From Streptomyces sp. (lineage in GTDB: Bacteria > Actinomycetota > Actinomycetes > Streptomycetales > Streptomycetaceae), in the NCBI RefSeq assembly GCF_019510245.1, contig NZ_JAEKKT010000123.1, positions 62,001-126,000 of the forward strand: 64,000 bases of DNA, in the 5' to 3' direction. Position 1 is the stretch's first letter. Every line of letters begins with the position of its first letter. Shown here in pieces: positions 29,497 through 61,596 of the stretch. The position numbers and the translations under genes are program-made. The notes under the pieces were generated by a model that had not been told where the DNA came from, made no database searches, and was given only the letters and a program-made list of their open reading frames with translations.

Positions 29497-30188
29497 ACGT
29501 CCTCCACCGGAACGAACCGCACGCGCGTCCCCGGCGTCAGCAGCGCGGCCGGCATGCGTGCGTGGTCCCACAGCACCGCCTCCGTCGTCCCGATGAGCTG
29601 CCAGCCGCCCGGCGAGGAACGCGGGTACACACCGGTGTACGGACCGGCCAGCGCCACCGCGCCCGCGGGCACGGCGGTGCGCGGGGTGGCCCGGCGCGGC
29701 ACGTCGTAGCGGGCGGGCAGCCCGGTGAGGTACCCGAAGCCGGGCGCGAAGCCGCAGAAGGCGACCGTGAACTCGGCGCCCGCGTGGATGCGGGCCACCT
29801 CGCGCTCGGGAACCCGCCAGTGGGCGGCGACCTCGGCGAGGTCCGGGCCGTCGTAGCGCACGGGCAGCTCGATCGCCGCACGCGCGCGTGGGGGAGCGGG
29901 CGGGATCGCGGTGGTGGCCAGTTCGGTGGCCAGGCGGGCCGGGTCGTCGAGGCCGTCGAGCAGGACCGTGCGGGCGGCGGGCACGATCTCGCGGACCGTC
30001 AGCGAGCCCTCCGCGCGGCGGCGCAGCAACTCGACGTGCAGGGCCTGGGCCTGCGTGCCGGAGCCGACCTCGACGAGGAGGGCGTCGTCGCCGACCGGGT
30101 GGACCGTCAGGGGCGTGGCTTCGGGCGCCTCCGACCGTGGGCTCGTGCTCACGCTCACACCTGCGCCCACGTTCGTGCCCGCGCTCAT
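29493..30188 (-). CDS. pxpB: 5-oxoprolinase subunit B (KipI-like)
   Basis: 231 residues. Typical segments: LTVHPVGDDALLVEVG, AARTVLLDGLD, ELPVRYDGPDLAEVAAHWRV, FCGFAPGFGYLTGLP (cyclophilin-like core) and GAVALAGPYTGVYPRSSPGG, ending near PAALLTPGTRVRF. It works with PxpC to phosphorylate and activate 5-oxoproline for PxpA. The extended Ser/Ala-rich first 27 residues follow ATG 30188, which overlaps the pxpA stop. It overlaps pxpC by four bases as well. Confidence 0.93.
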   Translation of the reverse strand: MSAGTNVGAGVSVSTSPRSEAPEATPLTVHPVGDDALLVEVGSGTQAQALHVELLRRRAEGSLTVREIVPAARTVLLDGLDDPARLATELATTAIPPAPPRARAAIELPVRYDGPDLAEVAAHWRVPEREVARIHAGAEFTVAFCGFAPGFGYLTGLPARYDVPRRATPRTAVPAGAVALAGPYTGVYPRSSPGGWQLIGTTEAVLWDHARMPAALLTPGTRVRFVPVEDV

Positions 30189-30943
30189 GCGAAGGCCGCC
30201 ACGGTCACGCCCGCCGCCGTGAGCCGCGCGCGCACCCGCCGCGCCAGCTCCACGGCGCCCGGGGTGTCGCCGTGCAGACAGAGCGAGCGGGCGCGCACCG
30301 CGATGCGCGCTCCGGAGTGCGAGGTGACCGCGCCGGAGCGCGCCAGTTCCACCGAGCGCTTCACGACCGCCTCCGGGTCGCTCACCACCGCGCCCTCGCG
30401 CCCGCGCGGGACAAGCGTCCCTTCGTCGGTGTACGCGCGGTCCGCGAAGGCCTCGGTGACCGTCGGCAGCCCCGCCTTCCCCGCCAGCGTGAGCAGCCGG
30501 GAACCAGGCAGCCCCAGAACCGGAAGCGAGGCGTCCGCGAGAAGCACGCCGTCGACCACCGCGGCGGCCTGCTCCTCGTCGTGCACGACCCGGTTGTAGA
30601 GCGCGCCGTGCGGCTTCACGTACGCCACGCGCGCGCCGGCGGCCCGGGCGAAGACCTCCAGGGCGCCGATCTGGTAGGCCACCTCGGCCGCCAGCTCGGC
30701 GGGCGGCACGTCCATCGCGCGCCGCCCGAACCCCGCCAGGTCCCGGTAGGACACCTGGGCGCCGATCGTCACCCCCTGCGCGGCCGCCAGCTCGCACACC
30801 CGCCGCATGGTGGCCGCGTCCCCCGCGTGGAAGCCGCAGGCCACATTGGCGCTGGTCACGACGGACAGCAGTTGCTCGTCGTCGGTGAGCCGCCAGCGGC
30901 CGAAACCCTCGCCCAGGTCGGCGTTCAGGTCGATCGAGGTCAT
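30185..30943 (-). CDS. pxpA: 5-oxoprolinase subunit A (LamB/YcsF family)
   Basis: 252 residues, the family's standard size. Complete signature: IDLNADLGEGFGRW, TSANVACGFHAGD, YVKPHGALYN and ADRAYTDEGTLVPRG. The hydrolytic subunit that opens the activated 5-oxoproline ring. It overlaps pxpB by four bases and is separated by 19 bases from the ycsI gene upstream. The set ycsF-ycsI-kipI-kipA, with a transporter and regulator, is the arrangement known from the Bacillus ycs-kip operon. Confidence 0.95.
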   Translation of the reverse strand: MTSIDLNADLGEGFGRWRLTDDEQLLSVVTSANVACGFHAGDAATMRRVCELAAAQGVTIGAQVSYRDLAGFGRRAMDVPPAELAAEVAYQIGALEVFARAAGARVAYVKPHGALYNRVVHDEEQAAAVVDGVLLADASLPVLGLPGSRLLTLAGKAGLPTVTEAFADRAYTDEGTLVPRGREGAVVSDPEAVVKRSVELARSGAVTSHSGARIAVRARSLCLHGDTPGAVELARRVRARLTAAGVTVAAFA

Positions 30944-30962
30944 GGATGCGCTGTCTCTCCTG

Positions 30963-31811
30963 TCAGGCCACGCGGTACTGCTCGTCGCGGGCGTCGCTGA
31001 TGAACATCTGGCCCGGTGCGTGGGTGATGGCGAACGGCGGCCGGGAGGCCATGACCGCCGCCTGCGGAGTCACCCCGCAGGCCCAGAACACCGGGATGTC
31101 GTCCGGGTCGGCGTCCACCGGGTCGCCGAAGTCGGGCCGGCCGAGGTCGGCGATGCCGAGCGCGGCGGGATCGCCGCAGTGCACGGGGCCGCCGTGCACC
31201 GCCGGGAGCAGACTGCTCTCCCGGATCGCGGTCGACAGATGCTGCGGCGGTACCGGGCGCATGGACACCACCATCGGCCCGCGCAGCCGTCCCGCCGGAC
31301 GGCACGGCCGGCTGGTCACGTACATGGGCACGTTCCGGCCCTGCTCGACGTGGCGTATCGGCACCCCGGCCCCGGCCAGCGCCCACTCGAAGGTGAAGCT
31401 GCACCCGAGCAGGAACGACACCAGGTCGCCGCGCCAGTACGCGCGCACGTCCGTCGGCTCGTCCACCAACTCCCCGTCCCGCCACACCCGGTAGCGTGGC
31501 AGGTCGGTACGCAGGTCCGCGCCCTCCGCCAGTTCGGTGCCGGTCGCACCGGCGTCGGTGACGTCGAGCACCGGGCAGGGCTTCGGATTGCGCTGGCAGA
31601 ACAGCAGCATGTCGTACGCCCAGTCGGCGGGCACCGAGATCAGGTTGGCCTGGGTGTGACCCGCCGCGACCCCGGCCGTGGGGCCCGTGAGACCGTCCCG
31701 GAAACGGGCCCGGGCGCTTCTCGGGCTCCACGCGTGCGCGTGCTCGTCGACGAGGACGACCGGACGGTCCTCCGTGGCCAGGGTGAGGACGTGGTCTTCC
31801 GCAGGGTTCAC
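30963..31811 (-). CDS. YcsI-type putative hydro-lyase/D-glutamate cyclase
   Basis: 282 residues. The family signature is present: [67 protein letters not shown], and [12 protein letters not shown]. Members are annotated as putative hydro-lyases, and some mammalian relatives are D-glutamate cyclases that make 5-oxo-D-proline, which fits this pyroglutamate operon. The GTG start is in 4-base overlap with the MFS stop. Reaction in bacteria: inferred, not shown. Confidence 0.88.
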
Positions 31812-33127
31812 GCCAGTTCCTTCCCGCGCGTCTCGGGCAGTCCGAACAGCGCCGCGGCGGCGAGCGCGTAGCCGGCCGCGCCGAAGACCAGCGCGCCGCC
31901 CAGGCCCCAGCTGTCGGCGAGGAAGCCCACCAGGGTCGGGAAGACCGCGCCCACCGCGCGGCCCGCGTTGTACGTGAAGCCCTGGCCGGTGCCGCGCACC
32001 GCCGTCGGGTACAGCTCACTCAGGTACGAACCGAAGCCGCTGAAGATGGCCGACATGCAGAAGCCGAGCGGGAAACCGAGCACGAGGAGCAGCGTGTTGG
32101 CGCCACCCGGGATGTTCGCGTACGCCAGCACGCACACCGCCGACAGCACCGCGAACAGCCAGATGTTGCGCCGCCGGCCCAGCCGGTCGGTGAGGTAGCC
32201 GCCGGTCAGATAGCCGAGGAAGGCCCCCGAGATCAGGAAGGTCAGATAGCCGCCGGTACCGACGACCGACAGACCGCGCTCGGTCTTCAGGTACGTCGGG
32301 ATCCAGGTCGCCAGCGTGTAGTAGCCGCCCTGCACACCCGTGGACAGCAGGCCGGCGAAGACCGTGGTGCGCAGCAGCCCGGGCGCGTCGGCCGTGCCCG
32401 GCCGGAAGATGGTGACGAACGAGCCGCGCTGCGGGCTCTGTTCGCGTACCGCGACCGCCTGCGGGGCGTCGTGCACCCGGCGGCGCAGCCACACCACGAG
32501 GAGCGCGGGCAGCGCGCCGGTCCAGAACATCACCCGCCAGGCCAGGTCGTCGCCGGCGAACGAGAAGACCAGCGTGTACACGATCGCGGCGAGCGCCCAG
32601 CCGACGGCCCAGGAGCTCTGGACGGCCCCCAGCGTGCGGCCACGGTGGCGGGCGCTCGCGTACTCGGCGACCAGGATCGCGCCGACCGCCCACTCGCCGC
32701 CGAAGCCGAGGCCCTGGAACGCGCGGAACACCAGCAGGGTCTCGTAGTTGGGGGCGAAGCCGCAGGCCACCGTGAAGACCGCGTAGGTGATCACGGTGAT
32801 CATCAGCGCGCGGACCCGGCCGACCCGGTCCGCGAACACGCCCGCCGCGGCGCCGCCGACCGCGGAGACCACCAGGGTGACGGTGGTGAACAGGCCGGTC
32901 TGGCCGCTGTCCAGGCCGAAGTACGCCGCGAGCGCGACCATGCTCAGCGGCAGGGTGAAGTAGTCGTACGAATCCAGGGCATATCCGCCGAAAGCTCCGG
33001 CGAACGCGCGTCGGCCGCGCGGACCGAGGGCGCGCAGCCAGCCGAACGCGCCGTCCTCGGCGGTGCGTTCACCCCTGCCCGATCGCGCGTCGGAGGACAG
33101 GGCCTGCGGTGGAGGAGTCGTGCTCAT
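31808..33127 (-). CDS. MFS transporter of the pyroglutamate operon
   Basis: 439 residues with 12 membrane helices. [20 protein letters not shown] and [12 protein letters not shown] (MFS motif), [19 protein letters not shown] and [12 protein letters not shown] place it in the sugar-acid/aromatic-acid/sialate-like group. It is first in the operon, with GAGG before ATG 33127. Given the following ycsI-pxpABC genes, the likely cargo is 5-oxoproline or a related carboxylate. The ribosome site and promoter are in the 185-base divergent gap with the GntR gene. Confidence 0.88.
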
Positions 33128-33247
33128 GGGCACCTCGCAGTTGAGGGACGGAGGGTGCGGGGACTGAGCAGTGCGGGGCCGTGCGAAGGGTCGTAGCGGG
33201 CGGCCCACCGAGGGGCGTCGTACGGTGAGCGTGATGAGCACCGTAGA

Positions 33248-33264
33248 GGATCGTTCAACGATCC
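33248..33264. promoter_or_regulatory. 17-bp perfect palindrome, likely GntR operator
   Basis: GGATCGTT-C-AACGATCC has perfect dyad symmetry. It sits between the divergent MFS-pxp operon and the GntR/FCD gene, about 50 bases upstream of the latter's ATG and 120 bases from the MFS start. This is the normal position for autoregulation and control of the operon. Confidence 0.65.
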
Positions 33265-33312
33265 TTCAATACCCGCGTTGTTTCGTTCCTGTGTCTGCGG
33301 TTGAATTCCGTC

Positions 33313-34008
33313 ATGGCAGAGCAGCTGACGGGACTGGCCGACGACCGCGCCCTCCTCGGGCGGACCAGCACCGCGGAACGGGTCTCCGACATCCTCAGGA
33401 GCCGCATCGCGGACGGTTACTTCCCGCCAGGCACCCGCCTGTCGGAGGACGGCATCGGCGGCGCGCTCGGCGTCTCCCGCAACACCCTGCGCGAGGCGTT
33501 CCGCCTGCTCACCCACGAACGCCTGCTGGTCCACGAACTCAACCGGGGCGTCTTCGTCCGGGTTCTGACCGTGGAGGACGTCGAGGACATCTACCGCACC
33601 CGCGCCCTCGTCGAGTGCGCGGTCGTACGCGGCCTCGGTGACCCGCCGTACGCCCTGGAGAGCCTGTCGGCGGCAGTCGCCGAGGGGCAGTCGGCGGCCA
33701 CCGCGGATGACTGGAAAGCAGTGGGTACGGCCAACATCCACTTCCACCGGGAACTGGTCGCCCTGGCCGCCAGCGAACGCACCGACGAACTGATGCGCAG
33801 CGTCTTCGCGGAACTCCGCCTCGCCTTCCACGTGGCCGACGACCCCCACGCCCTGCACGAGCCGTACCTGGCCCGCAACCGGGAGATCCTGGAATCGCTG
33901 GAACGCGGCGACAGGCGCGCCGCCGAGCGGCTCCTGGAGACGTATCTCACGGACTCCCTGGAACGGGTGGTCGAGGTCTACCGCCGCCGCGTCGACAGCA
34001 CCTCGTAG
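33313..34008 (+). CDS. GntR-family regulator (FCD ligand domain)
   Basis: 231 residues. A winged helix (AERVSDILRSRIADGYFPPG, then IGGALGVSRNTLREAFRLLT) is followed by a helical FCD domain (VEDIYRTRALVECAVVRGLG, NIHFHRELVALAAS, HALHEPYLARNREILESLER) whose Asp/His residues typically hold a metal that binds a carboxylate ligand. ATG 33313 is taken; the TTG at 33301 would add four residues. Divergent from the pyroglutamate operon with a perfect palindrome between, so it probably represses that operon and senses 5-oxoproline or glutamate-like acids. Confidence 0.92.
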   Translation: MAEQLTGLADDRALLGRTSTAERVSDILRSRIADGYFPPGTRLSEDGIGGALGVSRNTLREAFRLLTHERLLVHELNRGVFVRVLTVEDVEDIYRTRALVECAVVRGLGDPPYALESLSAAVAEGQSAATADDWKAVGTANIHFHRELVALAASERTDELMRSVFAELRLAFHVADDPHALHEPYLARNREILESLERGDRRAAERLLETYLTDSLERVVEVYRRRVDSTS

Positions 34009-34096: not shown

Positions 34097-34175
34097 GCTG
34101 ACAACCGCCCTGCAGTACCCGGCCCCACCGGCGGAGCCGCTCCGCGTCGTTTGGGCCGATGTCGGACCCAGGACC

Positions 34176-34191
34176 TAGTCTGTGCACCGTG
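34176..34191 (+). promoter_or_regulatory. -10 box and leaderless GTG start of the SMC-like cassette
   Basis: TAGTCT at 34176-34181 lies seven bases before GTG 34189, and TTGGGC at 34151-34156 is a possible -35. No ribosome site is visible before either GTG 34189 or ATG 34159, so a leaderless mRNA starting at GTG 34189 is preferred. Confidence 0.4.
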
Positions 34192-35718
34192 ACTTCGCCT
34201 GCATCGACGGACAGCGTTCCGCCCCAGCTCAGCGCGGGGCCGCGCCCGGCACCGGGCCCGGCCGCCGACGAGGGGCTGGCGCGGCGGCTGCGCGCGCTCG
34301 CCTGCACGGCGCCGCTGCACGACCTCGACGCACGCAAGGCGAACCTGGCCGGCGAGTACTCGGTGTACGGCATGGCCGAGGTGGCCCTCTCCGCCATCGA
34401 CCTGGTCACCCTGAACATGGACTTCGACACCGGTGCCGACCACGAGCAGATCGTCGCCCGGCTGATCCCGCGCATCTCCGCCCAGGCCCCGCACCGCCCC
34501 GTCGCCGAGCACGAGCGCGTGGCCCGCTGGATCCTGGAGAACCTGATCAACGTCGGCAGCGTCGACCGCGGCTTCCGCGCGGTGTACGGCACCTTCGCGC
34601 CGGACGGCTCGTACGTCCGCCGGGACTACGACTTCAAGCTCATCGAGGAGGTGCCCGGCCCGGGCGGCACGGTGTACCTCCGGACCACCGACGAGGCGGT
34701 CAACGTCCTCGTCGGCGCCCTCGACACGGATGTCACCAGCGCCCAGATCGCGGCCGAGGTGAAGCTGGAGGTGCTGATCAACCGCGGCCGGCTCGCCGAC
34801 GCCCAACTCGCCGCGGAGCAGGCCCGCTACCGGACCGTGCAGTACTCGGAGAGCCTGCGCCGGGCCCTGGAGGCCACCCGGCGCAACGTCCGCGCGGTGG
34901 ACTGGCTCAACGCCGTCCCCGACATGATCGCCGAGGCCCTGGACCACGTCGCCGACCGGTACCGGCACGAGAACGCGATCCTCACCAACATCCGCAAGGC
35001 CCGCGACGAGACCGAGGAGCCCGAGAACAAGCGGCGCGCCGCCGAGCTCGTCGACATCGTCAAGGACTGCATCCGCCGGCACACCCAGTTGCAGTCACGG
35101 CTGCTGGAGGCGGGGCCGCTGTTCCGTGCGGAGCAGGACCGGCAGGCGTTCGCGACGCCCATGACGACGTCGGGGACGGACCTGTACGGGCACCTCCTCG
35201 CGCCGCTGCTCCCGTTGCCGCTGGAGCAGGCGGGCCGGGTCACGGGGGCGTTCTTCGCGCGTGGGACCGGGCTGCGGACGCCGGTGTCGGTGCGGGTCGG
35301 CGACCTCGTCGACATACTGCTGACGCCGCCGGTGGAGCGGGAGCACCTGGGTGCGGAGATGCCGGAGCCGGACCTCGTCGCCACGCCGGACGACAGCCGG
35401 TTCAGCGAGAATCAGCTGGCGGACGCCATGCGGCTGCTGGACCTTCCGGCCGACGCGCCTCGGCGCTTGTCCGGGCTGCTGGCGGAGGCACGGCGCGTGG
35501 GCGGCGAGGAGCTGGCCTACCTGGTCGCCTTGCTGGCGGTGCACGCCGCGAGCCCGGCCGTGGGCACGGCCTACCGGCAGGGCGAGGAGAAGCTGCTGTT
35601 CGCGGTGGACGACGGCACGCAGCTGGACGACCCCGGCTTCGGCGGTGCCGATCTCATCGTCGGGACGGCCTTGCTGGACGCGGTGGGGATGGCTGCGGAT
35701 CGGACCGAGGCCGCGTGA
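34189..35718 (+). CDS. Kleisin-like subunit of an SMC-type complex (hypothetical)
   Basis: 509 residues, no named family recognised. An N-terminal helical domain (VYGMAEVALSAIDLVTLNMD), a middle with a winged-helix-like block (HEQIVARLIPRI ... RWILENLINVG ... FRAVYGTF), a long helical stretch with coiled-coil character (IAEALDHVADRYRHENAILT), and a C-terminal helical domain. Architecture and position match JetA/MksF kleisins that clamp SMC heads. It is the first of three co-directional genes with a winged-helix partner and a giant ATPase. ATG 34159 would add 10 residues. The role is inferred from its neighbours. Confidence 0.65.
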   Translation: MTSPASTDSVPPQLSAGPRPAPGPAADEGLARRLRALACTAPLHDLDARKANLAGEYSVYGMAEVALSAIDLVTLNMDFDTGADHEQIVARLIPRISAQAPHRPVAEHERVARWILENLINVGSVDRGFRAVYGTFAPDGSYVRRDYDFKLIEEVPGPGGTVYLRTTDEAVNVLVGALDTDVTSAQIAAEVKLEVLINRGRLADAQLAAEQARYRTVQYSESLRRALEATRRNVRAVDWLNAVPDMIAEALDHVADRYRHENAILTNIRKARDETEEPENKRRAAELVDIVKDCIRRHTQLQSRLLEAGPLFRAEQDRQAFATPMTTSGTDLYGHLLAPLLPLPLEQAGRVTGAFFARGTGLRTPVSVRVGDLVDILLTPPVEREHLGAEMPEPDLVATPDDSRFSENQLADAMRLLDLPADAPRRLSGLLAEARRVGGEELAYLVALLAVHAASPAVGTAYRQGEEKLLFAVDDGTQLDDPGFGGADLIVGTALLDAVGMAADRTEAA

Positions 35719-35730
35719 TGTCGTGTGCCG

Positions 35731-35812
35731 GGTGCGGACCGGTGGGGGCTGATCGCGCAGTTCCTCCCCCAGCCTTCGGCCGGGGGTACCCCCAGCGCCC
35801 AGAAGGGGCGCT
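35731..35812 (+). repeat. Streptomyces palindromic intergenic repeat, copy 3
   Basis: CGCAGTTCCTCCCCCAGCCT, then CGGCCGGGGGTACCCCCAGC and an AGAAGGGGCGC end, near identical to copies 1 and 2. It sits between the first and second gene of the SMC-like cassette, so it might weaken transcription into the second gene. Confidence 0.75.
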
Positions 35813-35851
35813 TGCGCAGGCCTCTGTTTTCAAGATCGAGGAGTTGTAGTC

Positions 35852-36721
35852 GTGAGCGAGTACGTCGAGGTCGAGGTGTCTGCTGGGGCGGCGCCCGCCG
35901 CCGTCACGCCCGCCGATGCCGCCGACGCCGCTCGGCTCGTCGCCTTCGGGTTGCAGCCCAAGCTGCAGCCCGCGCGTGATCAGGAGTACACCGAGCTGCT
36001 GCGGCGCTACCGGGAGGACCCGCCATTCGCGCGGCTCGCCGATGCCGTGGCCGCCGGGCTCGGGCTGGTGGTCCTCGAGGTGTCGCCCCGCGCGGGCATG
36101 GCCGTGGCCGCCGCAGAGGACTCGGTGTTCGCCGTGCGCATGGGCGACTACGCGCGCCGTACGTCCGCGGACGGCAGCGACCGGTTCCTGCACGGCCTCG
36201 CCCACCTCGCCGTCGCCGCGCTGGCGTTCCCGCGCCCCGAGGACCTGGCCGACGACGGCTACATCGGGCGGATCACGGTCAACGGCGTCGACGCCTTCGT
36301 CCGGCAGGCCTGCCGGCGGCTGGAGGAGCGGGCCGAGGAGGCGGGGGAGAACACCGACCCGGCCACCGACGCGCCCGGCCTGGAGGCCGCCTGGCGGATC
36401 TGGGCCAGACGCAGCGCGACCGGCGCCACCAAGGACGCCCGCCGGCTGGCCGGTTCCACCACCGGCATCATCGGCAAGGCGGTCGCCTTCCTCACCGACT
36501 CCGGGTTCCTCCAGCGCACCGGCGACGACCAGGGCGGCACGTACCGCACGACGGCCCGCTACCAGCTCCAGGTGCGGGACCTGGCCGGCAGCGCCGCCAT
36601 GGCCGAGCTGCTGGAGCTCGGCGTCGTCCCGGTCACGGACGGCACGGCCAGCCTGCTGCCCGCCGACGCCACCGAGGACCTGGACCTGGTCGCCGACGCC
36701 GGTCTGCCGTTCCACTCCTGA
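35852..36721 (+). CDS. KITE-like winged-helix subunit (hypothetical)
   Basis: 289 residues. N-terminal winged-helix-like segment (ADAARLVAFGLQPKL ... EYTELLRRYREDPPFARLAD), then LGLVVLEVSPRAGMAVAAAE, and a C-terminal second winged helix (STTGIIGKAVAFLTDSGFLQ, then TYRTTARYQLQVRDL). Two tandem winged helices and the size fit the KITE/MksE/JetB component that binds kleisin. It has no recognised name. GTG 35852 lies eleven bases after GAGGAG. The gap before it (133 bases) holds repeat copy 3. The ATPase gene follows after 63 bases. Confidence 0.65.
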   Translation: MSEYVEVEVSAGAAPAAVTPADAADAARLVAFGLQPKLQPARDQEYTELLRRYREDPPFARLADAVAAGLGLVVLEVSPRAGMAVAAAEDSVFAVRMGDYARRTSADGSDRFLHGLAHLAVAALAFPRPEDLADDGYIGRITVNGVDAFVRQACRRLEERAEEAGENTDPATDAPGLEAAWRIWARRSATGATKDARRLAGSTTGIIGKAVAFLTDSGFLQRTGDDQGGTYRTTARYQLQVRDLAGSAAMAELLELGVVPVTDGTASLLPADATEDLDLVADAGLPFHS

Positions 36722-36784
36722 GCCGTTCCCGAAGCCCTTTCCGGGCCGTCACCACCGCCTTCCCACGTCTTACGAGAGTCCGCC

Positions 36785-39700
36785 ATGTACGAGCTGTCCC
36801 GGGTCCGCCTCTACTCCATCGGGCCCGCCGGTGCGCGCTACGCCGACACCGTGCTGGACCTGCGCGGTGTCGGGGAGCCCGTGCCCGATCCCGCCCCCAC
36901 CCAGGCGGAGTTCTTCGAGGAGGAGCCGGTCGGGCCGCCGCGCCGGCCCGCGCCCGCAGGCGTCCTCTTCCTGGAGAACGGCGGCGGCAAGTCGGTGCTG
37001 CTCAAGCTGATCTTCTCGGTGATGCTGCCAGGGCACCGGAACACCCTCGGTGGGGCGAGCTCGGGCGTGCTGCGCAAGTTCCTGCTCGCCGACGACTGCG
37101 GCCATGTCGCCCTGGAGTGGCAGCACACGCTCACCGGCGAGTGCGTGGTCGTCGGCAAGGCGAGCGAGTGGCGGGGGCGGCAGGTCTCCAACGACCCGCG
37201 GAAGTTCGCCGAGGCCTGGTACTCGTTCCGGCCCGGCCCGGGGCTGTCGCTGGACAATCTGCCGGTCGCCGAGTCCACCGCCGTCCGGCAGCCCGTGGAG
37301 GGCACCTCGGGGGCACAGGGGCGACGGCGCACCATGAAGGGCTTCCGGGACGCCATCACCGAGGCGGGCAAGGCGTACCCGCACCTGGACGTGTACTGGG
37401 AGGAGATCCACGACCGCTGGATCGAGCACCTCGGCGACCTGGGCCTCGACCCCGAACTCTTCCGCTACCAGCGCGAGATGAACGCCGACGAGGGCGAGGC
37501 CGCAGGCCTGTTCGCGGTGAAGAAGGACTCGGACTTCACCGACCTGCTGCTGCGGGCCGTGACCGACACCAGGGACACCGACGGACTCGCCGACCTGGTC
37601 GGCGGCTTCGGCAACAAACTCGGGCGGCGCGCCGAGCTGATCGCCGAACGGGACTTCACCGCCGGGTCGGTGGACCTGCTGGGGCGGATCGTGGAGGCCG
37701 CGGAGGCCCGGTCACGCGCGCGTGACATCCACGCGGGCGCCGAACGCCGTACGCGTACGCTGGCGCGCCGGCTGTCCGCGCGGGGCGTGCAGGAGCGGGT
37801 GCGCGCCGCCGACCTCGCCCAGCGGGTCACGGCCGCCGCCTACGCCGTCACGCACTCCGACGGCGCCCGCGAGCGCAGCGCGCTGATCGCCGCCGAACTC
37901 GCCTACCGGCACGCCTCCCTGGCGCTCGCCGTCGGCGAGAAGTCCGCCGCCGCGCAGAAGCGCGAGCTGGCCGACGCACGCACCCTGCACGCGGCCTGGC
38001 AGGCCGCCGAAGCCGTGCTCCGCCACCGCACGGCCACCGACCGGGTCGCGCGCGTGGCCGCCGCCATCCAGGAGGCCGAGCGGGACGCGGCGCCCGCGCT
38101 CGCCGCCCGTGCCAAGGCCGCCGCCGCACTCGTGCGGGCCCTGCACGGGGCCGCCGAGCGTGCCGAGAGCCTCGCCAACGAGGAGGAGGAGCGGTCCGCC
38201 GCGCTCCAGGGGGTCAGCGACCGCGCGTACCGGGACTCGACCTCCGCCGCCACCGAGGCACAGCGCGCCCGCAGCGAGGCGGGGCACCTCAGGCAGCGGC
38301 TCGGCGAGGTCGAGCAGGAGACCGCCGAGGCGGTCCGCGCGGGCTGGCTCGACGACAGCGCCCCGGACGCCGACCCGGCCCGCGCCGCCCTCGCGGCGAG
38401 CGACGCCGAGAAGACGGCCGTGGCCGCCTGGGACACCGCCCGTGAGGCCTCCCGCCGAGCGAGCGAGCACGCGCGCGAGGCGGCCGCCGCCGAGTCCCGC
38501 GCCGAACTCACCGCCGCCCGCGCCGCGGACGCCGCGACAGCGGCCGAGCGGACCTACGACGCCGAGAAACGCCTGGCCGAGAGTCTCGCGGCGGAGGAGC
38601 GACTCACCGAGCTGCTGGGCCTCACCGGCTCCCGTCCCGCCATTCCGCGGCCCCGCCACGAGGGCGGCGACGACACCCTCACGCCCCTCGTGCCCGAGGA
38701 ACTCGACCGGTTCGCGGACGAGTTGCGGGAGCTGCTCGACGACGCCGTGGGGTCCGCCGAGCGGCACCTGTTCGAGCTGCGGACCGCCGCCGCCGACGAC
38801 TCCCGGATCCTCGGCGCCCTCGGCGACGGCGGACTGCTGCCGCCCGGCCCCGACGTGCTGGCCACCGTCGAGTTCCTCGGCGAGCACGGCATCCCCGCAC
38901 TGCCCGGCTGGCGCTACCTAGCCCAGGCCGTCGACCCCGCCGACCACGCGCGTGTGCTGGCCGCCCGTCCCGAACTCGTCGACGGTGTCGTCATCACCGA
39001 CCCCGACACGCACGCCCGCGCCCGCGAGGCGCTCAGCGAGGCGGCCCTGCTGCCCCGCTCCGCCGTGGCCGTCGGCACCGCCGCCGCCCTGCTCGCGCCC
39101 ACCCCGGCCGCGGACGCCACCCCGGGCGACGTGTTCCTCGTACCGCCGAACCCGGCCATGCACGACGAGCACGCCGCCGACGAGGAGCGGCAGGCGCTGC
39201 GCGCGCGGGCCACCGAGCGGGACGAGGAGATCCGCACCCTCGCCGCGCGGCTCGGCAAGGACCGCGAACTGGCCGCGCGGCTCGCCTCCTGGCGCACCGG
39301 CTGCCCGGCCGGGCGGCTCGTGGAGCTGGCGCAGGAGGCCCGGGACGCACGGGCGTTCGCCGACGAGTCGGAGGCCGAGCTGACCGAGGCCCGGACCGTG
39401 CGGGCCGAGGCCGAGGAGGCCGCCGCCGAGGCCGCGCAGGTGCGCGACGAACGGCAGGAGGCCGCCCAGCGGGCCCGGCGCGCGGCCGACGCCCTCGCCG
39501 GCCTCGCGTTCCGGCTGCGCGAGCGGGCCGGCTGGCAGGTCAGGCTGCGCGAACTCGCCGACGAAGCCGCCGAGTCGGAGGCCCGCGCCCAGTCCTGCCT
39601 GGAAAGCGCCCGTGTCGCCGACGAGGACCGGCGCGCCGCCCAGCGCGCCGCCGACGACGCCCGCCGCACCGCCCGTGCGCTGCGCGCCGAGCGCTCCGAG

Positions 39701-41395
39701 ATCGCCGGAGCACCCGACGACATCCCCGAGACCGACGAGGACGCCCTCGGGGTCACGTCCCCGCTGCCCGCCCTGCGCGAGGCCTACCGGGCCGCCTCGC
39801 AGGTGTACGAGAAGGTCGGTGTCGGCGCCGATCTGCGCGCCGAGCAGGCCCGTGCGGAGAGCGACGAGAGCGCCGCGCTCACGGAGCTGGAGCGGCTGAG
39901 CAACAAGGTCCGCACCCGGGCGGAGCAGCTGCTGCAGTCGCCCGACGGCTCCGACGGGCCCTCCCGGCAGGCCGCCGCCGCCCGCGCGGAGGAACTGATG
40001 CAGCTCCTGGAGACCCGCATGTCCACCGCGAGCGAGCAGCTCGGGCGGCTCCGCGGCGAGGCCGAGCGGCACGCCCCCGAGGACGGCGAGGCGCACACCG
40101 AACTGCCCGAGGAGCTCCAGCCGCGCGACGCCGAGCACGCCCAGGCACTCCTGCGCACCGCGACGGCCGAACTCGCTGCGCGCACCGAGGCGCTGGCCCA
40201 GGCCCGGGAGGCGCACGCCGAACTGCTGGACACCCACCGCGCGGCCGAGGACGCGGCGGGCGGCTTCGAGGAGATCGCCGCCATGCTCCGCGACCTGCTG
40301 CGCGAGCACACCGCCGACGAGGAACAGGAGGAGCCCGAGCCGTACCCCGGCAGCCTGGAGGAAGCCCGGCAGTCCGCCGCCGAGGCCCGCAGGTCGCTGC
40401 GCGGCTGCGCCGGTGACCTGTCCGCCGCCGAGTCCGCCGTCCGTGAGGCGAGCGACGTCCTCGTACGGCACGCCAACGCCACCCGGTACGAGGCGGTGCG
40501 GACCCCCGCGCGTCAGCAGATCCGGGAACTGCCCGCCTCCGCCCTGCCCGAGCACGCCCAGAAGTGGGCGGACGCCTTCGCGCCGCGGCTGCGCGTGCTG
40601 ACCGACGAACTGGCCCAGCTGGAGCGGAACCGGGACTCGATCGTGGACCGGCTGCGAGGGCTCGTCGAGTCCGCGCTGGCCACCCTGCGCTCAGCCCAGC
40701 GGCTCTCCCGGCTGCCTGAGGGGCTCGGCGAGTGGTCCGGGCAGGAGTTCCTCCGCATCCGCTTCGAGGAGCCCGACCAGGCCACGCTCACCGAGCGGCT
40801 CGGCGAGGTCGTCGACGAGGCGACCCGGGCCGCCGTGAAGAAGAACTCCGATCTCCGGCGGGACGGAATGTCCTTGCTGCTGCGCGGAGTCGCGGCCGCT
40901 CTTCAGCCGAAGGGCGTCGCCGTGGAGATCCTCAAGCCGGACGCGGTACTGCGCGCCGAGCGGGTGCCGGTGGGGCAGATGGGGGACGTGTTCTCCGGCG
41001 GACAGCTGCTGACCGCCGCCATCGCCCTGTACTGCACGATGGCCGCACTGCGCTCCAACGACCGGGGGCGGGACAAGCACCGGCACGCGGGGACGCTGTT
41101 CCTCGACAACCCCATCGGGCGCGCCAACGCGACGTACCTGCTGGAGCTCCAGCGGGCCGTGTCGGACGCGCTGGGCGTGCAACTGCTGTACACGACCGGG
41201 CTCTTCGACACCACGGCACTGGCCGAGTTCCCGCTGGTCATCCGGTTGCGGAACGACGCGGACCTGCGGGCCGGCCTCAAGTACATCAGTGTGGAGGAAC
41301 ATCTCCGGCCCGGGCTGCCTCAGCAGCCGCAGGCGGGAGAGGCCGTGCACAGCGAGATCACCGCCACGCGGATGTTCAGGAAGCCGTCAGCCTGA
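36785..41395 (+). CDS. SMC/MukB-like giant coiled-coil ATPase
   Basis: 1536 residues. The N-terminal head half has FLENGGGKSVLLKLIFS (Walker A, about 63-75). Two very long Ala/Glu/Arg-rich coiled-coil arms (about 290-620 and 790-1300) flank a globular hinge-like domain (about 620-790: LTPLVPEELDRFADELRELL, PALPGWRYLAQAVDPADH, VITDPDTHARAREAL). The C-terminal head half has GDVFSGGQLLTAAIALY (ABC signature, about 1400-1415) and GTLFLDNPIGRANATYLLEL (Walker B, about 1437). The catalytic Glu after Walker B is Asn here. Architecture is that of MukB/MksB/JetC, which act in plasmid restriction or chromosome organisation. Cytoplasmic. Third in the cassette; no JetD/MksG nuclease follows. Confidence 0.8.
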   Translation: MYELSRVRLYSIGPAGARYADTVLDLRGVGEPVPDPAPTQAEFFEEEPVGPPRRPAPAGVLFLENGGGKSVLLKLIFSVMLPGHRNTLGGASSGVLRKFLLADDCGHVALEWQHTLTGECVVVGKASEWRGRQVSNDPRKFAEAWYSFRPGPGLSLDNLPVAESTAVRQPVEGTSGAQGRRRTMKGFRDAITEAGKAYPHLDVYWEEIHDRWIEHLGDLGLDPELFRYQREMNADEGEAAGLFAVKKDSDFTDLLLRAVTDTRDTDGLADLVGGFGNKLGRRAELIAERDFTAGSVDLLGRIVEAAEARSRARDIHAGAERRTRTLARRLSARGVQERVRAADLAQRVTAAAYAVTHSDGARERSALIAAELAYRHASLALAVGEKSAAAQKRELADARTLHAAWQAAEAVLRHRTATDRVARVAAAIQEAERDAAPALAARAKAAAALVRALHGAAERAESLANEEEERSAALQGVSDRAYRDSTSAATEAQRARSEAGHLRQRLGEVEQETAEAVRAGWLDDSAPDADPARAALAASDAEKTAVAAWDTAREASRRASEHAREAAAAESRAELTAARAADAATAAERTYDAEKRLAESLAAEERLTELLGLTGSRPAIPRPRHEGGDDTLTPLVPEELDRFADELRELLDDAVGSAERHLFELRTAAADDSRILGALGDGGLLPPGPDVLATVEFLGEHGIPALPGWRYLAQAVDPADHARVLAARPELVDGVVITDPDTHARAREALSEAALLPRSAVAVGTAAALLAPTPAADATPGDVFLVPPNPAMHDEHAADEERQALRARATERDEEIRTLAARLGKDRELAARLASWRTGCPAGRLVELAQEARDARAFADESEAELTEARTVRAEAEEAAAEAAQVRDERQEAAQRARRAADALAGLAFRLRERAGWQVRLRELADEAAESEARAQSCLESARVADEDRRAAQRAADDARRTARALRAERSEIAGAPDDIPETDEDALGVTSPLPALREAYRAASQVYEKVGVGADLRAEQARAESDESAALTELERLSNKVRTRAEQLLQSPDGSDGPSRQAAAARAEELMQLLETRMSTASEQLGRLRGEAERHAPEDGEAHTELPEELQPRDAEHAQALLRTATAELAARTEALAQAREAHAELLDTHRAAEDAAGGFEEIAAMLRDLLREHTADEEQEEPEPYPGSLEEARQSAAEARRSLRGCAGDLSAAESAVREASDVLVRHANATRYEAVRTPARQQIRELPASALPEHAQKWADAFAPRLRVLTDELAQLERNRDSIVDRLRGLVESALATLRSAQRLSRLPEGLGEWSGQEFLRIRFEEPDQATLTERLGEVVDEATRAAVKKNSDLRRDGMSLLLRGVAAALQPKGVAVEILKPDAVLRAERVPVGQMGDVFSGGQLLTAAIALYCTMAALRSNDRGRDKHRHAGTLFLDNPIGRANATYLLELQRAVSDALGVQLLYTTGLFDTTALAEFPLVIRLRNDADLRAGLKYISVEEHLRPGLPQQPQAGEAVHSEITATRMFRKPSA

Positions 41396-41426: not shown

Positions 41427-41897
41427 TCAGGGGTGCGTCAGCTGCCCCGCCTGGCCGCCCCGCCGCCGTATCCGCTCCTGTTCGCGCTCGGCGGCCCGCT
41501 GCTGCCGCCTGGCCGCGCGCCGCTCCCGGCGGAGGGTGCGGGCCGTGCTGCTCGGCTCCGAGACCACGCCGTGGCGCTGGCTCCACACCTGACGGGTCAC
41601 CAGGACGTCGACCGCGCTCCAGGTGGCCACCACCGTGCTCACCACGCTGCTGATCACCATGGGGAACGCCAGCCAGGACTCCGCCATCGTGCAGAAGAAC
41701 GCCACCATGGCCAGGATCAGCGTGACAGCGATGATGATCACCGACCGCACCGCCGCCGTCCGCACCGGATCCGGCATCCGGTACCGCTTGGCCGGCTCCT
41801 CGATCCACAACGTCCGGTACTGCGCCTGCTGTTGCCGCACCGTCGAGTGCGTCGCCGCGCCGTCCTCCGACACCGCCAGCCGCTCAGCCGTCCCCAT
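41427..41897 (-). CDS. Two-helix membrane protein, hypothetical
   Basis: 156 residues. Two membrane helices near the middle (AAVRSVIIIAVTLILAMVAF and ESWLAFPMVISSVVSTVV), an acidic/polar N-terminus, and a strongly basic C-terminal tail (RTLRRERRAARRQQRAAERE) predicted to be cytoplasmic and perhaps to touch DNA or lipid. The ATG at 41897 follows GGGGAGTG; a longer start at 41924 is possible. It converges on the SMC-like ATPase gene and lies divergently upstream of the conservon. Confidence 0.75.
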   Translation of the reverse strand: MGTAERLAVSEDGAATHSTVRQQQAQYRTLWIEEPAKRYRMPDPVRTAAVRSVIIIAVTLILAMVAFFCTMAESWLAFPMVISSVVSTVVATWSAVDVLVTRQVWSQRHGVVSEPSSTARTLRRERRAARRQQRAAEREQERIRRRGGQAGQLTHP

Positions 41898-42339
41898 CAA
41901 CGTGTCACTCCCCACCGCCGGCAAGCCCTCGCACCGGTGTCCGACGACCCCGGCTCCCCAGTGGCTGCCCGGCTTGCGCTGTTTTACGCTGCCCGGACGA
42001 GAGATGCGGCTCCTGTGGCCGAATCCGCACTCATCACCTGTCTACAAGGACGAACGAACTCGCCCGATGATTCCCAACCAGGGAAAAATTCCGGCCAACT
42101 GATCCTTCGTGGCGTTCCCGCCCCACTCGCGTGAAGTCGACTGAAGTCGACGCGATCGCGGTGGCAATCTCCCGCAATGCCCGGACAACTCGTCCCATCC
42201 GTCCGTCATGTCCGTTCGTCGGGGCGGAAGTTCACCGTCCGGACAGTTCTTCGAGTTATCCCTGTGACGGTAGTAGGCTCGCGCCGTTTGTTGACGTACA
42301 TGTGTACCCCCACCCGAGGGGGTCGAGCTGGGGGAGGCC
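41898..42339. other. 442-bp divergent gap upstream of the conservon
   Basis: It contains two tandem copies of TGAAGTCGAC (42132-42151) and, near the end, the ribosome site GGGGGAGGCC directly before ATG 42340. TTGACGTACATGTG at about 42293 could contain a -35. No gene was seen. Confidence 0.5.
42132..42151 (+). repeat. Tandem 10-mer upstream of the conservon
   Basis: TGAAGTCGAC is repeated twice with no gap, about 190 bases before the CvnA start. It could be a regulator-binding direct repeat. Confidence 0.5.
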
Positions 42340-45096
42340 ATGCGCTTTCGCGGGAAGTCCATCCGCCGGAAGATCGTGGCGCTGCTCCTCGTGCCGCTGG
42401 TGTCCCTGACGGCCGTCTGGGGATTCGCGGCCGTGCTCACGGGACGCGAGGTCACCCACCTGTTCGAGGTGTCGGCGATCGTCGAGGACATCGGCTACCC
42501 CACCGAGGACGCGGTCCGCGCCCTCCAGCAGGAACGCCGGCAGACCCTGGTCTACCTCGCCGACCCGCGCGCCTCCGACGCGCTCGCCGCCCTGAACCGC
42601 ACACGCACCGCCACCGACGAGACCGTGGCGAGGCTCCGCAAGAACGCCGGGGAACAGCACGTACGCGACGGCCTGGACGCGGACGACAGCGACCGCCTCA
42701 CCGCCGAACTCGACGGGCTCGACGGCATCGCCCCCCTGCGCCGCAGCGTCGAGCAGGGCACCGTGGACCGCGCCCAGGCACTGAGCCTCTACAACGCCGT
42801 CGTCGAGCCCTGCTACGCGCTGCTCGGCTCCCTCGACGGAATCGACGACGTCGAGGTGGACAAGCAGGCCCGCGCCCTCGTCAACATCGCCCGGGCCCGT
42901 GAGCTCGTCTCCCGCGAGGACGCCCTGCTCGGCTCCGCCCTCGTGGTCGGGAAGGTCACCTCCCAGGAGACCCGCGAGATCTCCGACCTCATCGCCCAGC
43001 GCACCCTCCTCTACGACATCAGCCTCCCGCTGCTGCCGGCCGGCGAACGCGACCGCTTCGACCGCTTCTGGAGGGGCGCCACCACCGCCCCGCTGCTGGC
43101 CGCCGAGAAGTCCGTCCTCGCCGCCGGGTCCGGCATGCCGAACGACGTCAGCGCCAAGAGCTGGGACGCCACCGCGGGCACGGTGCTGGACGAACTGCGC
43201 ACCCTCGACGACCAGGTCGGCGACCGCTTCCAGGACCGCGTCCGGCCCGTCTCCGTCACCGTGATCGTCCAGGCGGCCGTCGTCGGCGTCCTCGGCCTGG
43301 TCGCCGTGGTGTTCTCGCTGGTCGTGTCGGTCCGCGTCGGCCGCAGCCTCATCCGCGACCTGCGGGCGCTCGGCCAGGAGGCGCACGAGGCCTCCGGGGT
43401 CCGGCTGCCGAGCGTGATGCGCCGGCTGTCCGCGGGCGAACAGGTCGACGTGGAGACCGAGGTCCCGCGCCTGGAGTACGACAGGAACGAGATCGGCGAG
43501 GTCGGCCAGGCCCTCAACACCCTGCAGCGCGCCGCCGTCGAGGCCGCCGTCAAGCAGGCCGAGCTGCGCGCCGGCGTCTCCGAGGTCTTCGTCAACCTCG
43601 CCCGCCGCAGCCAGGTCCTGCTGCACAAGCAGCTCACCCTGCTCGACACCATGGAGCGCAGGACCGAGGACACCGACGAACTCGCCGACCTCTTCCGGCT
43701 CGACCACCTCACCACCCGTATGCGCCGGCACGCCGAGGGCCTGGTCATCCTCTCCGGAGCCGCACCCTCGCGGCAGTGGCGCCGGCCCGTCCAGCTGATG
43801 GACGTGGTGCGCGCCGCCGTGGCCGAGGTCGAGGACTACGAGCGCATCGAGGTCCGCCGGCTGCCCCGCGTCGCCGTCACCGGCCCGGCCGTCGCCGACC
43901 TCACCCACCTGGTGGCGGAACTCCTGGAGAACGCCACGGTGTTCTCGCCGCCGCACACCGCCGTGCAGGTGCTCGGCGAACGCGTCGCCAACGGCTTCAC
44001 CCTGGAGATCCACGACCGGGGCCTCGGCATGGCGGCCGAGGCGCTCCTGGACGCCAACCTGCGGCTCGCCGAGACGCCCGAGTTCGAGCTCTCCGACACC
44101 GACCGGCTCGGCCTGTTCGTGGTCAGCCGCCTCGCCCAGCGTCAGAACGTCCGTGTCTCCCTCCAGCCGTCCCCCTACGGCGGCACCACCGCCGTCGTCT
44201 TCATCCCCGACGTACTGCTGACCGACGACGTCCCCGACACCAACGGCGTCGGCTTCCGCCTCGACCGCGGCCGCCCGGCCCGGGAGGCCGAACCCGAGGA
44301 GAGCCGCGCCGCCTCCCTGGACCAGGTGCCGGGGCAGCGGCCCGGACTGCCGGCCGCGCTGCTGGACGGCCCGGTCGAGCTGGAGGCACCCGTCGATCTG
44401 GACGCGCTCGACGACTTCCCGGGTGCCCTCACCGACGACGACAGCGAGCGCGGCGGCCTGTTCCGTCCCCGCCGCTCTCTCGCCGACGCCGACGACCCGG
44501 CGGCGCCCGCCGTGACCGAACTGCGTCACCCGGCCCGCGAGACCGCCGACCGCTTCGGCGAGGAGCACCCCGGCAGCCCCGTGACACTGCCCGCACGGCG
44601 TACGCCCAAGCTGGTCAGCTCGCACGGCAGGCCGGTCCCCGAGCAGCGCTCCCGCCGCGTCGACCCGGAGGAGCGGGACCCGGCCGGTCAGGGCCGCCCC
44701 GAACCGGGCGGACTCGCCCCGCTGCCCTCCCGCCGCCGCACCGACCCCTCCGGCCCCCCTGCCCTGCCCCAGCGCACCCGCCGCTCCGCGAGCGCCTCCG
44801 GCGGCGGCACCGAAGACTCCGTCCCGCCCCAAGGCAGCACACCCCCGGAGGCCGCGTCCGGCACCCGGCCGCTGCCCAGGCGGGTACGGCAGGCCAACCT
44901 GGCCCCACAGCTGCGACAGGAACCCGCATCATCCGCCGCGCGCGAGCCGGAACTGGTCGAGCGTGACGCCGACGAGGTCCGCAGCCGCATGGGCTCGCTC
45001 CAGCGCGGCTGGCAGCGCGGCCGAGCGGAGAACGCCGAGGGCGACGGCTCCCGGGACAGCACAGCACAAGGAACGACTAAGGGGGACGGTCGATGA
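42340..45096 (+). CDS. cvnA: Conservon sensor histidine-kinase-like protein CvnA
   Basis: 918 residues. N-terminal membrane helix (KIVALLLVPLVSLTAVWGFA), a long extracellular NIT-like sensor domain rich in helices, a second membrane helix (VIVQAAVVGVLGLVAVVFSL at about 307-330), HAMP-like region, a dimer region with VNLARRSQVLLHKQLTLLD, and a GHKL ATPase domain with HLVAELLENATVFSPP (N box) and DRGLGMAAEALLDAN (G box). The roughly 250-residue tail is Pro/Arg/Glu-rich and disordered. It senses an unknown external signal and signals to CvnB, C and D at the membrane rather than a classical regulator. Its stop overlaps CvnB by four bases. Confidence 0.92.
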   Translation: MRFRGKSIRRKIVALLLVPLVSLTAVWGFAAVLTGREVTHLFEVSAIVEDIGYPTEDAVRALQQERRQTLVYLADPRASDALAALNRTRTATDETVARLRKNAGEQHVRDGLDADDSDRLTAELDGLDGIAPLRRSVEQGTVDRAQALSLYNAVVEPCYALLGSLDGIDDVEVDKQARALVNIARARELVSREDALLGSALVVGKVTSQETREISDLIAQRTLLYDISLPLLPAGERDRFDRFWRGATTAPLLAAEKSVLAAGSGMPNDVSAKSWDATAGTVLDELRTLDDQVGDRFQDRVRPVSVTVIVQAAVVGVLGLVAVVFSLVVSVRVGRSLIRDLRALGQEAHEASGVRLPSVMRRLSAGEQVDVETEVPRLEYDRNEIGEVGQALNTLQRAAVEAAVKQAELRAGVSEVFVNLARRSQVLLHKQLTLLDTMERRTEDTDELADLFRLDHLTTRMRRHAEGLVILSGAAPSRQWRRPVQLMDVVRAAVAEVEDYERIEVRRLPRVAVTGPAVADLTHLVAELLENATVFSPPHTAVQVLGERVANGFTLEIHDRGLGMAAEALLDANLRLAETPEFELSDTDRLGLFVVSRLAQRQNVRVSLQPSPYGGTTAVVFIPDVLLTDDVPDTNGVGFRLDRGRPAREAEPEESRAASLDQVPGQRPGLPAALLDGPVELEAPVDLDALDDFPGALTDDDSERGGLFRPRRSLADADDPAAPAVTELRHPARETADRFGEEHPGSPVTLPARRTPKLVSSHGRPVPEQRSRRVDPEERDPAGQGRPEPGGLAPLPSRRRTDPSGPPALPQRTRRSASASGGGTEDSVPPQGSTPPEAASGTRPLPRRVRQANLAPQLRQEPASSAAREPELVERDADEVRSRMGSLQRGWQRGRAENAEGDGSRDSTAQGTTKGDGR

Positions 45097-45527
45097 CCGA
45101 TCCGAAGGCGACCGGCCACACGGCGACGAACAAGGGCGAGCTGAACTGGCTGCTGGACGACCTCGTGGACCGGGTCGCCAGCATCCGCAAGGCGGTCGTG
45201 CTCTCCGGCGACGGCCTGCCCACCGGCGTCTCCAAGGACCTCACCAGAGAGGACAGCGAGCACCTGGCCGCCGTCGCCTCCGGCTTCCACAGCCTCGCCA
45301 AGGGCGTGGGCCGGCACTTCGAGGCGGGCAGTGTCCGGCAGACCGTCGTCGAGCTCGACGACGCCTTCCTGTTCGTCACGGCCGCCGGCGACGGCAGCTG
45401 CCTCGCCGTCCTCTCCGACGCCGACTCCGACGTCGGCCAGGTCGCGTACGAGATGACGCTCCTGGTCAAGAGGGTCGGCGTACATCTGGGGTCCGCTCCG
45501 CGCACCGATCTGCCCTCGGGCGGGTAG
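45093..45527 (+). CDS. cvnB: Roadblock/LC7 protein CvnB
   Basis: 144 residues. A single roadblock/LC7 domain: ELNWLLDDLVDRVASIRKAV, VLSGDGLPTGVSKDL, VVELDDAFLFVTAAGDGSCL and LAVLSDADSDVGQVAYEM. Such proteins scaffold and modulate small GTPases, here CvnD. ATG 45093 lies in 4-base overlap with cvnA, with GGGGGACGG upstream. CvnC follows after nine bases. Confidence 0.95.
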   Translation: MTDPKATGHTATNKGELNWLLDDLVDRVASIRKAVVLSGDGLPTGVSKDLTREDSEHLAAVASGFHSLAKGVGRHFEAGSVRQTVVELDDAFLFVTAAGDGSCLAVLSDADSDVGQVAYEMTLLVKRVGVHLGSAPRTDLPSGG

Positions 45528-45536
45528 TGGGATGAC

Positions 45537-45932
45537 ATGAGCGGAGACGGTCAGGGAAGAAGCCACTGGTTCGACGACGAGGCCGGACCGGTCGTCCGTC
45601 CCTACGCCATGACACGCGGCCGCACCACCAGTGCGGGCCAGCACCGGCTCGACCTGATCGCGGTGGTCGTCACCGAGCCGCACGTGGACGACCCGGACGA
45701 CGACCGGACGCTGTCCCCGGAGCACGTGGACATCGTCGAGCTCTGCCGTGACGCCCCGCAGTCGGTCGCCGAGCTGGCCTCGGAACTCGACCTCCCCATC
45801 GGCGTGGTCCGGGTCCTCATCGGCGACCTCGTCGACGGGGAACTCGTCCATGTCAACCGGCCGGTACCCCCGGCCGAGCTGGTGGACGAGAGTATTCTGC
45901 GCGACGTGATCAACGGCCTCCGGGCGCTGTGA
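45537..45932 (+). CDS. cvnC: DUF742 protein CvnC
   Basis: 131 residues. The DUF742 family signature is clear: PVVRPYAMTRGRTTSAGQH, LSPEHVDIVELCRDAPQSVA, and a winged-helix-like ELASELDLPIGVVRVLIGDL. It may bind DNA or connect CvnB to CvnD, but its role is not known. In typical conservons CvnD follows directly and overlaps; here a large 5-oxoprolinase gene follows 24 bases later. Confidence 0.93.
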   Translation: MSGDGQGRSHWFDDEAGPVVRPYAMTRGRTTSAGQHRLDLIAVVVTEPHVDDPDDDRTLSPEHVDIVELCRDAPQSVAELASELDLPIGVVRVLIGDLVDGELVHVNRPVPPAELVDESILRDVINGLRAL

Positions 45933-45956
45933 CCGGCGCGGAAGCGGAGTAGTGAC

Positions 45957-49572
<3,616 letters not shown>

Positions 49573-49592
<20 letters not shown>

Positions 49593-61523: not shown

Positions 61524-61596
61524 TGTCCGCATCCCCCGTTGTCAGTGGCGCCGGTTACTGTGAGTGAGCATTGATCGACCGCTCACAGGGGGAACC

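Follow-up and report, generated by a model that had tools for sequence, protein, structure and literature searches.

A candidate DNA-damage-inducible, nuclease-free Jet condensin conserved across Streptomycetaceae

In this work, we analyzed a 64,000-nucleotide stretch of Streptomyces sp. DNA (hereafter, the window) and specifically three consecutive genes within it, jetABC, which encode a presumed kleisin, a presumed KITE protein and an ATPase of the structural maintenance of chromosomes (SMC) type, all related to the anti-plasmid Wadjet systems. The reading that we favor, with a probability of roughly 0.55, is that they encode a DNA-damage-inducible, nuclease-free Jet condensin conserved across Streptomycetaceae, which would likely serve chromosome management after DNA damage instead of plasmid destruction. 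Studies of Streptomyces condensins treat SMC as the condensin (PMC13121528, PMC8410768), Pseudomonas aeruginosa has been called unique among model bacteria for encoding two condensins (PMC7485682), and the available portions of the open-access literature contained no description of this locus, of a nuclease-free Jet complex in Streptomyces or of a link between PafBC and SMC. If the favored reading is true, almost every Streptomyces would possess a second, Wadjet-derived complex as a natural partner or back-up of SMC, and the locus would be a clear case of a defense motor turned to a core function. Furthermore, the recA-type motif found before jetA bears on the question, undecided in PMC9380542, of a RecA/LexA-independent damage response in Streptomyces.

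The jetABC genes and JetD

The first-pass annotation had described, on the plus strand, a row of three genes coding for 509, 289 and 1536 residues, and a kleisin/KITE/SMC-like layout related to Wadjet. The genes were confirmed at the following coordinates, and the relationship was upheld by family labels.

34189..35718, plus strand: jetA (type III, presumed kleisin), 509 aa, GTG start; PADLOC PDLC00567, 611 bits
35852..36721, plus strand: jetB (type III, presumed KITE), 289 aa; identified via relatives
36785..41395, plus strand: jetC (type III SMC-like ATPase, DUF3584 type), 1536 aa; PADLOC PDLC00588, 1405 bits
36980..36994, plus strand: JetC Walker A motif, GGGKS, residue 66; from alignment with JetD-linked JetC
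40991..41005, plus strand: JetC ABC signature, FSGGQ, residue 1403; from the same alignment
41099..41119, plus strand: JetC Walker B motif, FLDNPIG, residue 1439; from the same alignment

The comparison with Jet profiles that the first-pass annotation had proposed gave matches to PDLC00567 and PDLC00588: the first protein is a JetA3 by PADLOC (match spanning residues 24-507) and the third a JetC3 (residues 1-1534). The window JetB itself has no PADLOC match; its identity to the JetB encoded in a JetABCD operon on a Rhodococcus plasmid is 54%, and 10 of the 28 members of its alignment match JetB3 (PDLC00573) at E values up to 0.1 (best 6.4e-6). By family assignment, the three are adjoining members of the type III Wadjet families, with JetB placed via its relatives. 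NCBIfam and Pfam scans of the three proteins gave no useful match, and no Pfam MukB-type match to JetC; sequence searches of all three against the PDB and profile searches with the two smaller proteins found no relative, and an hhalign profile comparison of JetA and JetB with the presumed type I JetA and JetB of their own genome gave no match. The nucleotide-binding motifs of JetC are all intact in the alignment. Most SMC proteins carry a glutamate in Walker B where JetC has an asparagine. A Walker B breakage peculiar to the nuclease-free clade was considered and rejected, since the same D-N-P Walker B is common to the type III JetC proteins that do have JetD.

The absence of the nuclease gene jetD after jetC, reported in the first-pass annotation, held true not only in the window but also in its relatives, where a consistently adjoining JetD would have spoken against that annotation's reading: tblastn with five JetD queries (E 0.01) found none in 115 contexts, namely the window, 80 named loci (the best 80 of 531 confirmed, 79 of them titled Streptomyces) and 34 others, some of which stop shortly past jetC. 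As a positive control, the same queries matched 11 of 11 JetD-bearing loci. Because no JetD adjoins jetC, the locus is not classed as a Wadjet system. A JetD concealed in the flanks was also rejected, given the negative tblastn result and the lack of a nuclease family match among the flanking proteins scanned in the window and its relatives, which belong to betaine/sarcosine-type catabolism, 5-oxoprolinase genes, a histidine-kinase cluster and gapA-pgk-tpiA.

Elsewhere in the genomes, JetD3 is rare: 129 of 150 Streptomyces genomes lack any match, and the 21 with a match comprise 11 with strong ones (E <1e-40, 12 places) and 10 further genomes with weak ones (E 2e-7 to 8e-4, 12 places). All 11 strong-match genomes are among the 13 that have at least two JetA matches, and none is among the 134 single-JetA genomes. 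In nine of the ten genomes with weak matches, these are on another contig or more than 1 Mb away from the JetA listed; no JetA place is listed for the remaining one (G042). In seven two-copy genomes (G135, G119, G166, G114, G085, G037 and G614), the JetD-adjoining JetA is 35-51% identical to the window JetA and the other copy is 82-94% identical, with no JetD shown beside it (the contig of G166 stops within jetC). In the genome to which the window belongs, a single JetD_C match was found, within a separate type I Wadjet operon on another contig (G000 contig C189, locus L154 1545-8234), in which JetD1 and JetC1 were labeled by PADLOC, and JetA and JetB by position only. JetD_C (PF09983) was found in at least 2 of 31 family genomes, a lower bound because this model fails on two of the four type III JetD proteins tested. 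As the own-genome JetD sits with JetC1 and most Streptomyces genomes lack a JetD3 match, the first-pass suggestion of a partner encoded elsewhere is disfavored.

Comparison of JetD-bearing and JetD-less rows revealed no JetA position kept in the former and lost in the latter, and nine such positions in JetC, too few for interpretation. Nine plasmid records have a JetC match; among the five inspected, a JetD3 gene stands immediately 3' of jetC in four (L083, L084, L086 and L087), and in the fifth, from a Salmonella plasmid (L085 6303-10729), jetC is split into two open reading frames followed by a JetD-like stretch. No copy more than 60% identical was found among 72,556 plasmid records, and 50,697 phage records gave no JetC match. 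In a RecA search of PLSDB intended as a control for Streptomyces, none of the 60 records listed out of 1293 was from Streptomyces.

Conservation and descent of jetABC

JetA3 is present in 147 of 150 Streptomyces genomes (including G149, whose match reaches only E 1.2e-30) and in 145 of the 146 of good quality; of the three genomes without it, two fall short of 85% completeness and one is split over 1140 contigs. Across the family, taken as Streptomycetaceae from the Streptomyces identity of the closest named relatives of the window, it was found in 120 of 121 genomes and 17 of 17 genera, with the genus g10 (G010) counted only via a JetD-linked operon, so that this genome may be without the core nuclease-free copy. 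A class-wide draw of 394 genomes from 137 genera gave matches in 61 genomes and 7 genera, one of them weak. The standard condensin subunit ScpB occurs in 143 of the same 150 Streptomyces genomes; thus, the SMC-ScpAB and JetABC sets coexist. Nuclease-free JetABC was also found in Frankiaceae (the JetB of locus L094 is 100% identical to that of Frankia sp. AvcI1) and in one Prauserella, P. isguenensis, where jetABC lies directly 5' of gapA-pgk-tpiA (L116 3043-13248). JetB relatives more than 80% identical are common in Amycolatopsis.

JetA is kept in 78 of the 80 named loci, JetB in 79 and JetC in 80, and the gaps fall at contig starts (L057, L068). The median ratios of nonsynonymous to synonymous divergence (dN/dS) relative to the window are 0.114 for JetA, 0.167 for JetB and 0.135 for JetC, the two JetC head parts being the most conserved (0.074 and 0.044), and those of seven neighbor genes range from 0.115 to 0.419. 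Synonymous divergence of jetABC (0.41-0.45) is like that of the neighbors (0.42-0.59), as expected under shared descent, and the aligned pieces of JetA, JetB and JetC (78, 79 and 80 loci) contain no internal stops. jetABC is under purifying selection. In one species (L038 7258-8289), the best JetA piece aligns only to residue 344, possibly by a break or a sequencing error. In five genome pairs, the core JetA proteins are 82-92% identical and the JetD-linked ones 35-95%; the faster change of the latter is a tendency and not a rule, the 95% pair representing a recent shared copy.

In a JetA tree of 64 rows, from which five very long JetD-linked rows were excluded, the nuclease-free Streptomycetaceae rows, 31 in number, group together (99/91), as do the 19 nuclease-free rows of Frankiaceae (100/100). 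Uniting both groups was not rejected (p-AU 0.33). JetD may have been lost one to three times. A quick tree of JetC heads (47 rows) agrees, with groups of 27 Streptomycetaceae and 12 Frankiaceae rows. For seven of the 19 Frankiaceae loci (L099, L104, L107, L108, L109, L111 and L114) and for L122, the sequence extends no further than jetC; for these eight loci, nuclease-free means tree placement plus the lack of a JetD3 match beside them.

A PafBC-type promoter motif and the readings of the locus

Alignment of 69 upstream regions revealed a single strongly conserved block, immediately 5' of the GTG codon of jetA, with the layout GTTT box, TTGTCRGAC or TTGTCRGTG, 8 bases, TARTCT, 7 bases and GTG. 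In the window, its parts are:

34149..34152, plus strand: conserved GTTT box just 5' of the motif; from the upstream alignment
34159..34181, plus strand: PafBC/RecA-NDp-type promoter motif, atgtcggac-N8-tagtct; 9 of 12 scored positions, TGTCR and TAnnnT core intact

This block resembles the mycobacterial consensus tTGTCRgtg-8 nt-TannnT identified with PafBC (PMC5656591), and the RecA-NDp promoter has been said to reach other Actinobacteria (PMC8223512). We scored 12 positions against the mycobacterial consensus, with neighbors in the same loci as background. The 79 jetA sites (78 loci plus the window) scored 9 in 24 cases, 10 in 45, 11 in 2 and 12 in 8; among 609 other upstream regions, 17 scored 9 and none scored 10 or more, and random Markov sequence reached at least 10 in 67 of 20,000 cases. 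On both strands of the 80 loci (3.8 Mb), all 10 matches of score 11-12 are jetA promoters; at score 10, 45 are jetA sites and 50 lie elsewhere. Furthermore, the strict core TGTCR-N11-TAnnnT ends exactly 7 bases 5' of the GTG in 78 of the 79 sites (in L051 it is one base closer) and occurs in none of the 150-base upstream regions of 1168 other genes. Since the jetA sites are related by descent, they do not amount to 78 independent events, and the fixed spacing is the stronger point. Of the 17 nuclease-free loci of the family draw (L134-L151), scored over a wider search stretch, 15 score at least 9 and 10 at least 10, with L146 and L147 below.

The motif also bears on the jetA start. The ATG of a longer open reading frame, at 34159, falls within the motif, and the GTG at 34189, which is in the same place in 78 of 78 aligned loci, was therefore taken as the correct start. 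With this GTG only 7 bases past the predicted -10 element, the jetA mRNA is probably leaderless.

As a positive control, we scanned one 800-kb stretch of one Streptomyces chromosome (G135:C1:5400001-6200000, L156-L195). It contains two perfect matches, one upstream of recA (located by tblastn with Escherichia coli RecA, 68% identity) and the other 9 bases 5' of a DinG-like helicase gene; six sites of score 11, of which five precede genes for a MazG-like protein, an Lhr-like helicase, an ABC transporter, a 145-aa protein and a permease encoded shortly 5' of recA, and one has no called gene; and 51 sites of score 10. Protein names at these sites, other than recA, were read from sequence. This distribution speaks for a PafBC-type regulon in Streptomyces. 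The window itself carries a perfect PafBC-type motif, TTGTCAGTG-N8-TACTGT (61539-61561, plus strand), 35 bases 5' of a gene for an uncharacterized protein of 297 aa (61597-62490), for which no PDB relative was found.

Taken together, these results suggest the following mechanism. By likeness to related complexes, JetA, JetB and JetC would assemble into an SMC complex that uses ATP to load on DNA and to extrude or bridge loops, in the way proposed for JetABC in Wadjet (PMC10586767). Since JetD is missing, extrusion would end with no cut being triggered, and the outcome would be compaction, tethering or alignment of DNA. Judging by the promoter, accumulation of single-stranded DNA, the trigger of PafBC (PMC11804915), would increase expression of jetABC along with that of recA and of repair helicases. 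Alongside SMC-ScpAB, the complex might then hold damaged or sister chromosomes, or compact them, while repair proceeds. There is precedent in P. aeruginosa MksBEF, a relative without JetD that works on chromosomes (PMC10586767, PMC7485682), and in Borrelia MksB, which promotes long-range chromosomal contacts (PMC10406323). The wider evolutionary proposal, to which we give somewhat less than an even chance, is that Streptomycetaceae converted an anti-plasmid Wadjet motor into a core damage-inducible chromosome complex by dropping the nuclease and keeping a RecA-independent damage promoter, which would yield an Smc5/6-like repair condensin beside SMC-ScpAB.

Several observations weigh against a damage-inducible core condensin. 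(i) The window jetA motif misses three less-conserved positions, and the window has one further core match, a perfect one, 5' of an unrelated gene. (ii) Only two of the 19 nuclease-free Frankiaceae loci score at least 9, and the Prauserella locus scores 8. (iii) A motif of 11-12 of 12 also precedes jetA in 6 of 19 JetD-labeled loci (L083, L087, L117, L119, L125 and L133), among which the JetD of L133 and L152 is not on the sequence stretch examined. (iv) According to PMC9380542, an initial motif search suggested a lack of conservation in S. venezuelae of the PafBC motif known from M. smegmatis, contrary to which our control scan of another Streptomyces does show the motif at recA. (v) The locus lies toward a chromosome arm, its median distance from the closer end being 15% of chromosome length (31 single-contig genomes, with rounded sizes and hand-picked copies), and Wadjet systems are enriched toward chromosome extremities (PMC10482375). 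The core region postulated in the first-pass annotation thus holds as regards conservation, but not as regards this location. As to the third point, the motif alone cannot separate repair from defense; the damage wiring may predate the loss of JetD, and actinobacterial Wadjet III may, on this evidence, be inducible by damage or by single-stranded DNA.

Two other functions have to be considered, both of which we regard as unlikely. One is a constitutive second condensin like P. aeruginosa MksBEF, organizing and segregating the chromosome at all times with the promoter motif as a minor input. The near-universal, slow-evolving and syntenic jetABC genes would fit it, but the conserved block before jetA is a damage-type motif plus GTTT box, and the promoter class of recA is not one that we would expect of a constitutive condensin. 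The DNA-damage promoter motif, which the first-pass annotation had missed, shifts the likely role of the locus away from constitutive housekeeping and toward one induced by damage.

The other, of similarly low probability, is a nuclease-less defense complex that binds, compacts or silences small circular or incoming DNA when single-stranded DNA from conjugation or from the entry of a phage induces it, or that borrows JetD or another nuclease in trans. Defense genes are usually patchy and fast-evolving, and jetABC is neither. It would be in line with a defense function that the published Wadjet systems tested act on plasmids (PMC10586767), that single-stranded DNA triggers PafBC, that the same promoter motif precedes jetA in 6 of 19 JetD-labeled loci, and that a type I JetD exists in the same genome; against it stand the lack of JetD3 in 129 of 150 genomes, the few JetD_C matches (at least 2 of 31 family genomes) and the negative plasmid and phage searches. 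Finally, a decaying, functionless Wadjet remnant, as the absent nuclease gene and the shortened JetA match in 1 of 80 loci might indicate, is very improbable in view of dN/dS values far below 1 and the lack of internal stops.

Genomic surroundings and comparison with known systems

The survey of Streptomyces neighbors foreseen in the first-pass annotation showed largely the same neighborhood across the 80 loci, with downstream genes more variable. The genes flanking jetABC in the window are:

33313..34008, plus strand: GntR/FCD regulator; upstream neighbor in 72 of 80 loci
41427..41915, minus strand: 162-aa convergent neighbor where JetD would sit; fast-evolving, dN/dS 0.36

The regulator is not thought to be part of the complex. 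The convergent orientation of the next gene, as first described, was confirmed; its end lies 31 bases past the jetC stop, its product has no Pfam or PADLOC match, and the following called gene is on the opposite strand in 73 of the 80 loci. Further out, 5-oxoproline-type genes (CT_A_B, CT_C_D, YcsF, D-glutamate cyclase, MFS and GntR) occupy one flank (28627-34008) and a hydantoinase/oxoprolinase the other (45957-49592), the latter interrupting a cluster of NIT histidine kinase, roadblock, DUF742 and GTPase-like ATP_bind_1 genes (42340-50178). In S. rimosus (L079), DUF969, DUF979 and pyroglutamyl peptidase genes stand between GntR and jetA, and a number of Streptomyces loci, such as L028 (14734-21608), carry an insertion directly 3' of jetC with Rieske oxygenase, sarcosine-dehydrogenase-like and related genes. 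No parS-like site with up to 3 mismatches was found in the window.

Among known systems, the mycobacterial PafBC regulon and RecA-NDp promoters share with this locus the motif tTGTCRgtg-8 nt-TannnT, which here precedes Streptomyces recA and jetA; unlike in the known regulon, the predicted target is an SMC complex, and no such target was found in the available portions of the literature surveyed. Smc5/6 is an SMC complex with a role in DNA damage that also restricts circular extrachromosomal DNA, and its likeness is one of analogy only. With Wadjet type III (JetABCD), the locus has in common the JetA3, JetB3 and JetC3 families, the A-B-C order and the Walker motifs, including the D-N-P Walker B, and with some JetD-linked type III loci also the promoter motif before jetA; it differs in that the window locus has no JetD past JetC and in being near-universal and syntenic, whereas JetD3 is patchy. 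From P. aeruginosa MksBEF it is set apart by a type III JetC, the lack of a Pfam MukB-type match, a damage-type promoter and a different phylum, yet both are three-subunit sets that exist beside SMC-ScpAB with no nuclease gene adjoining.

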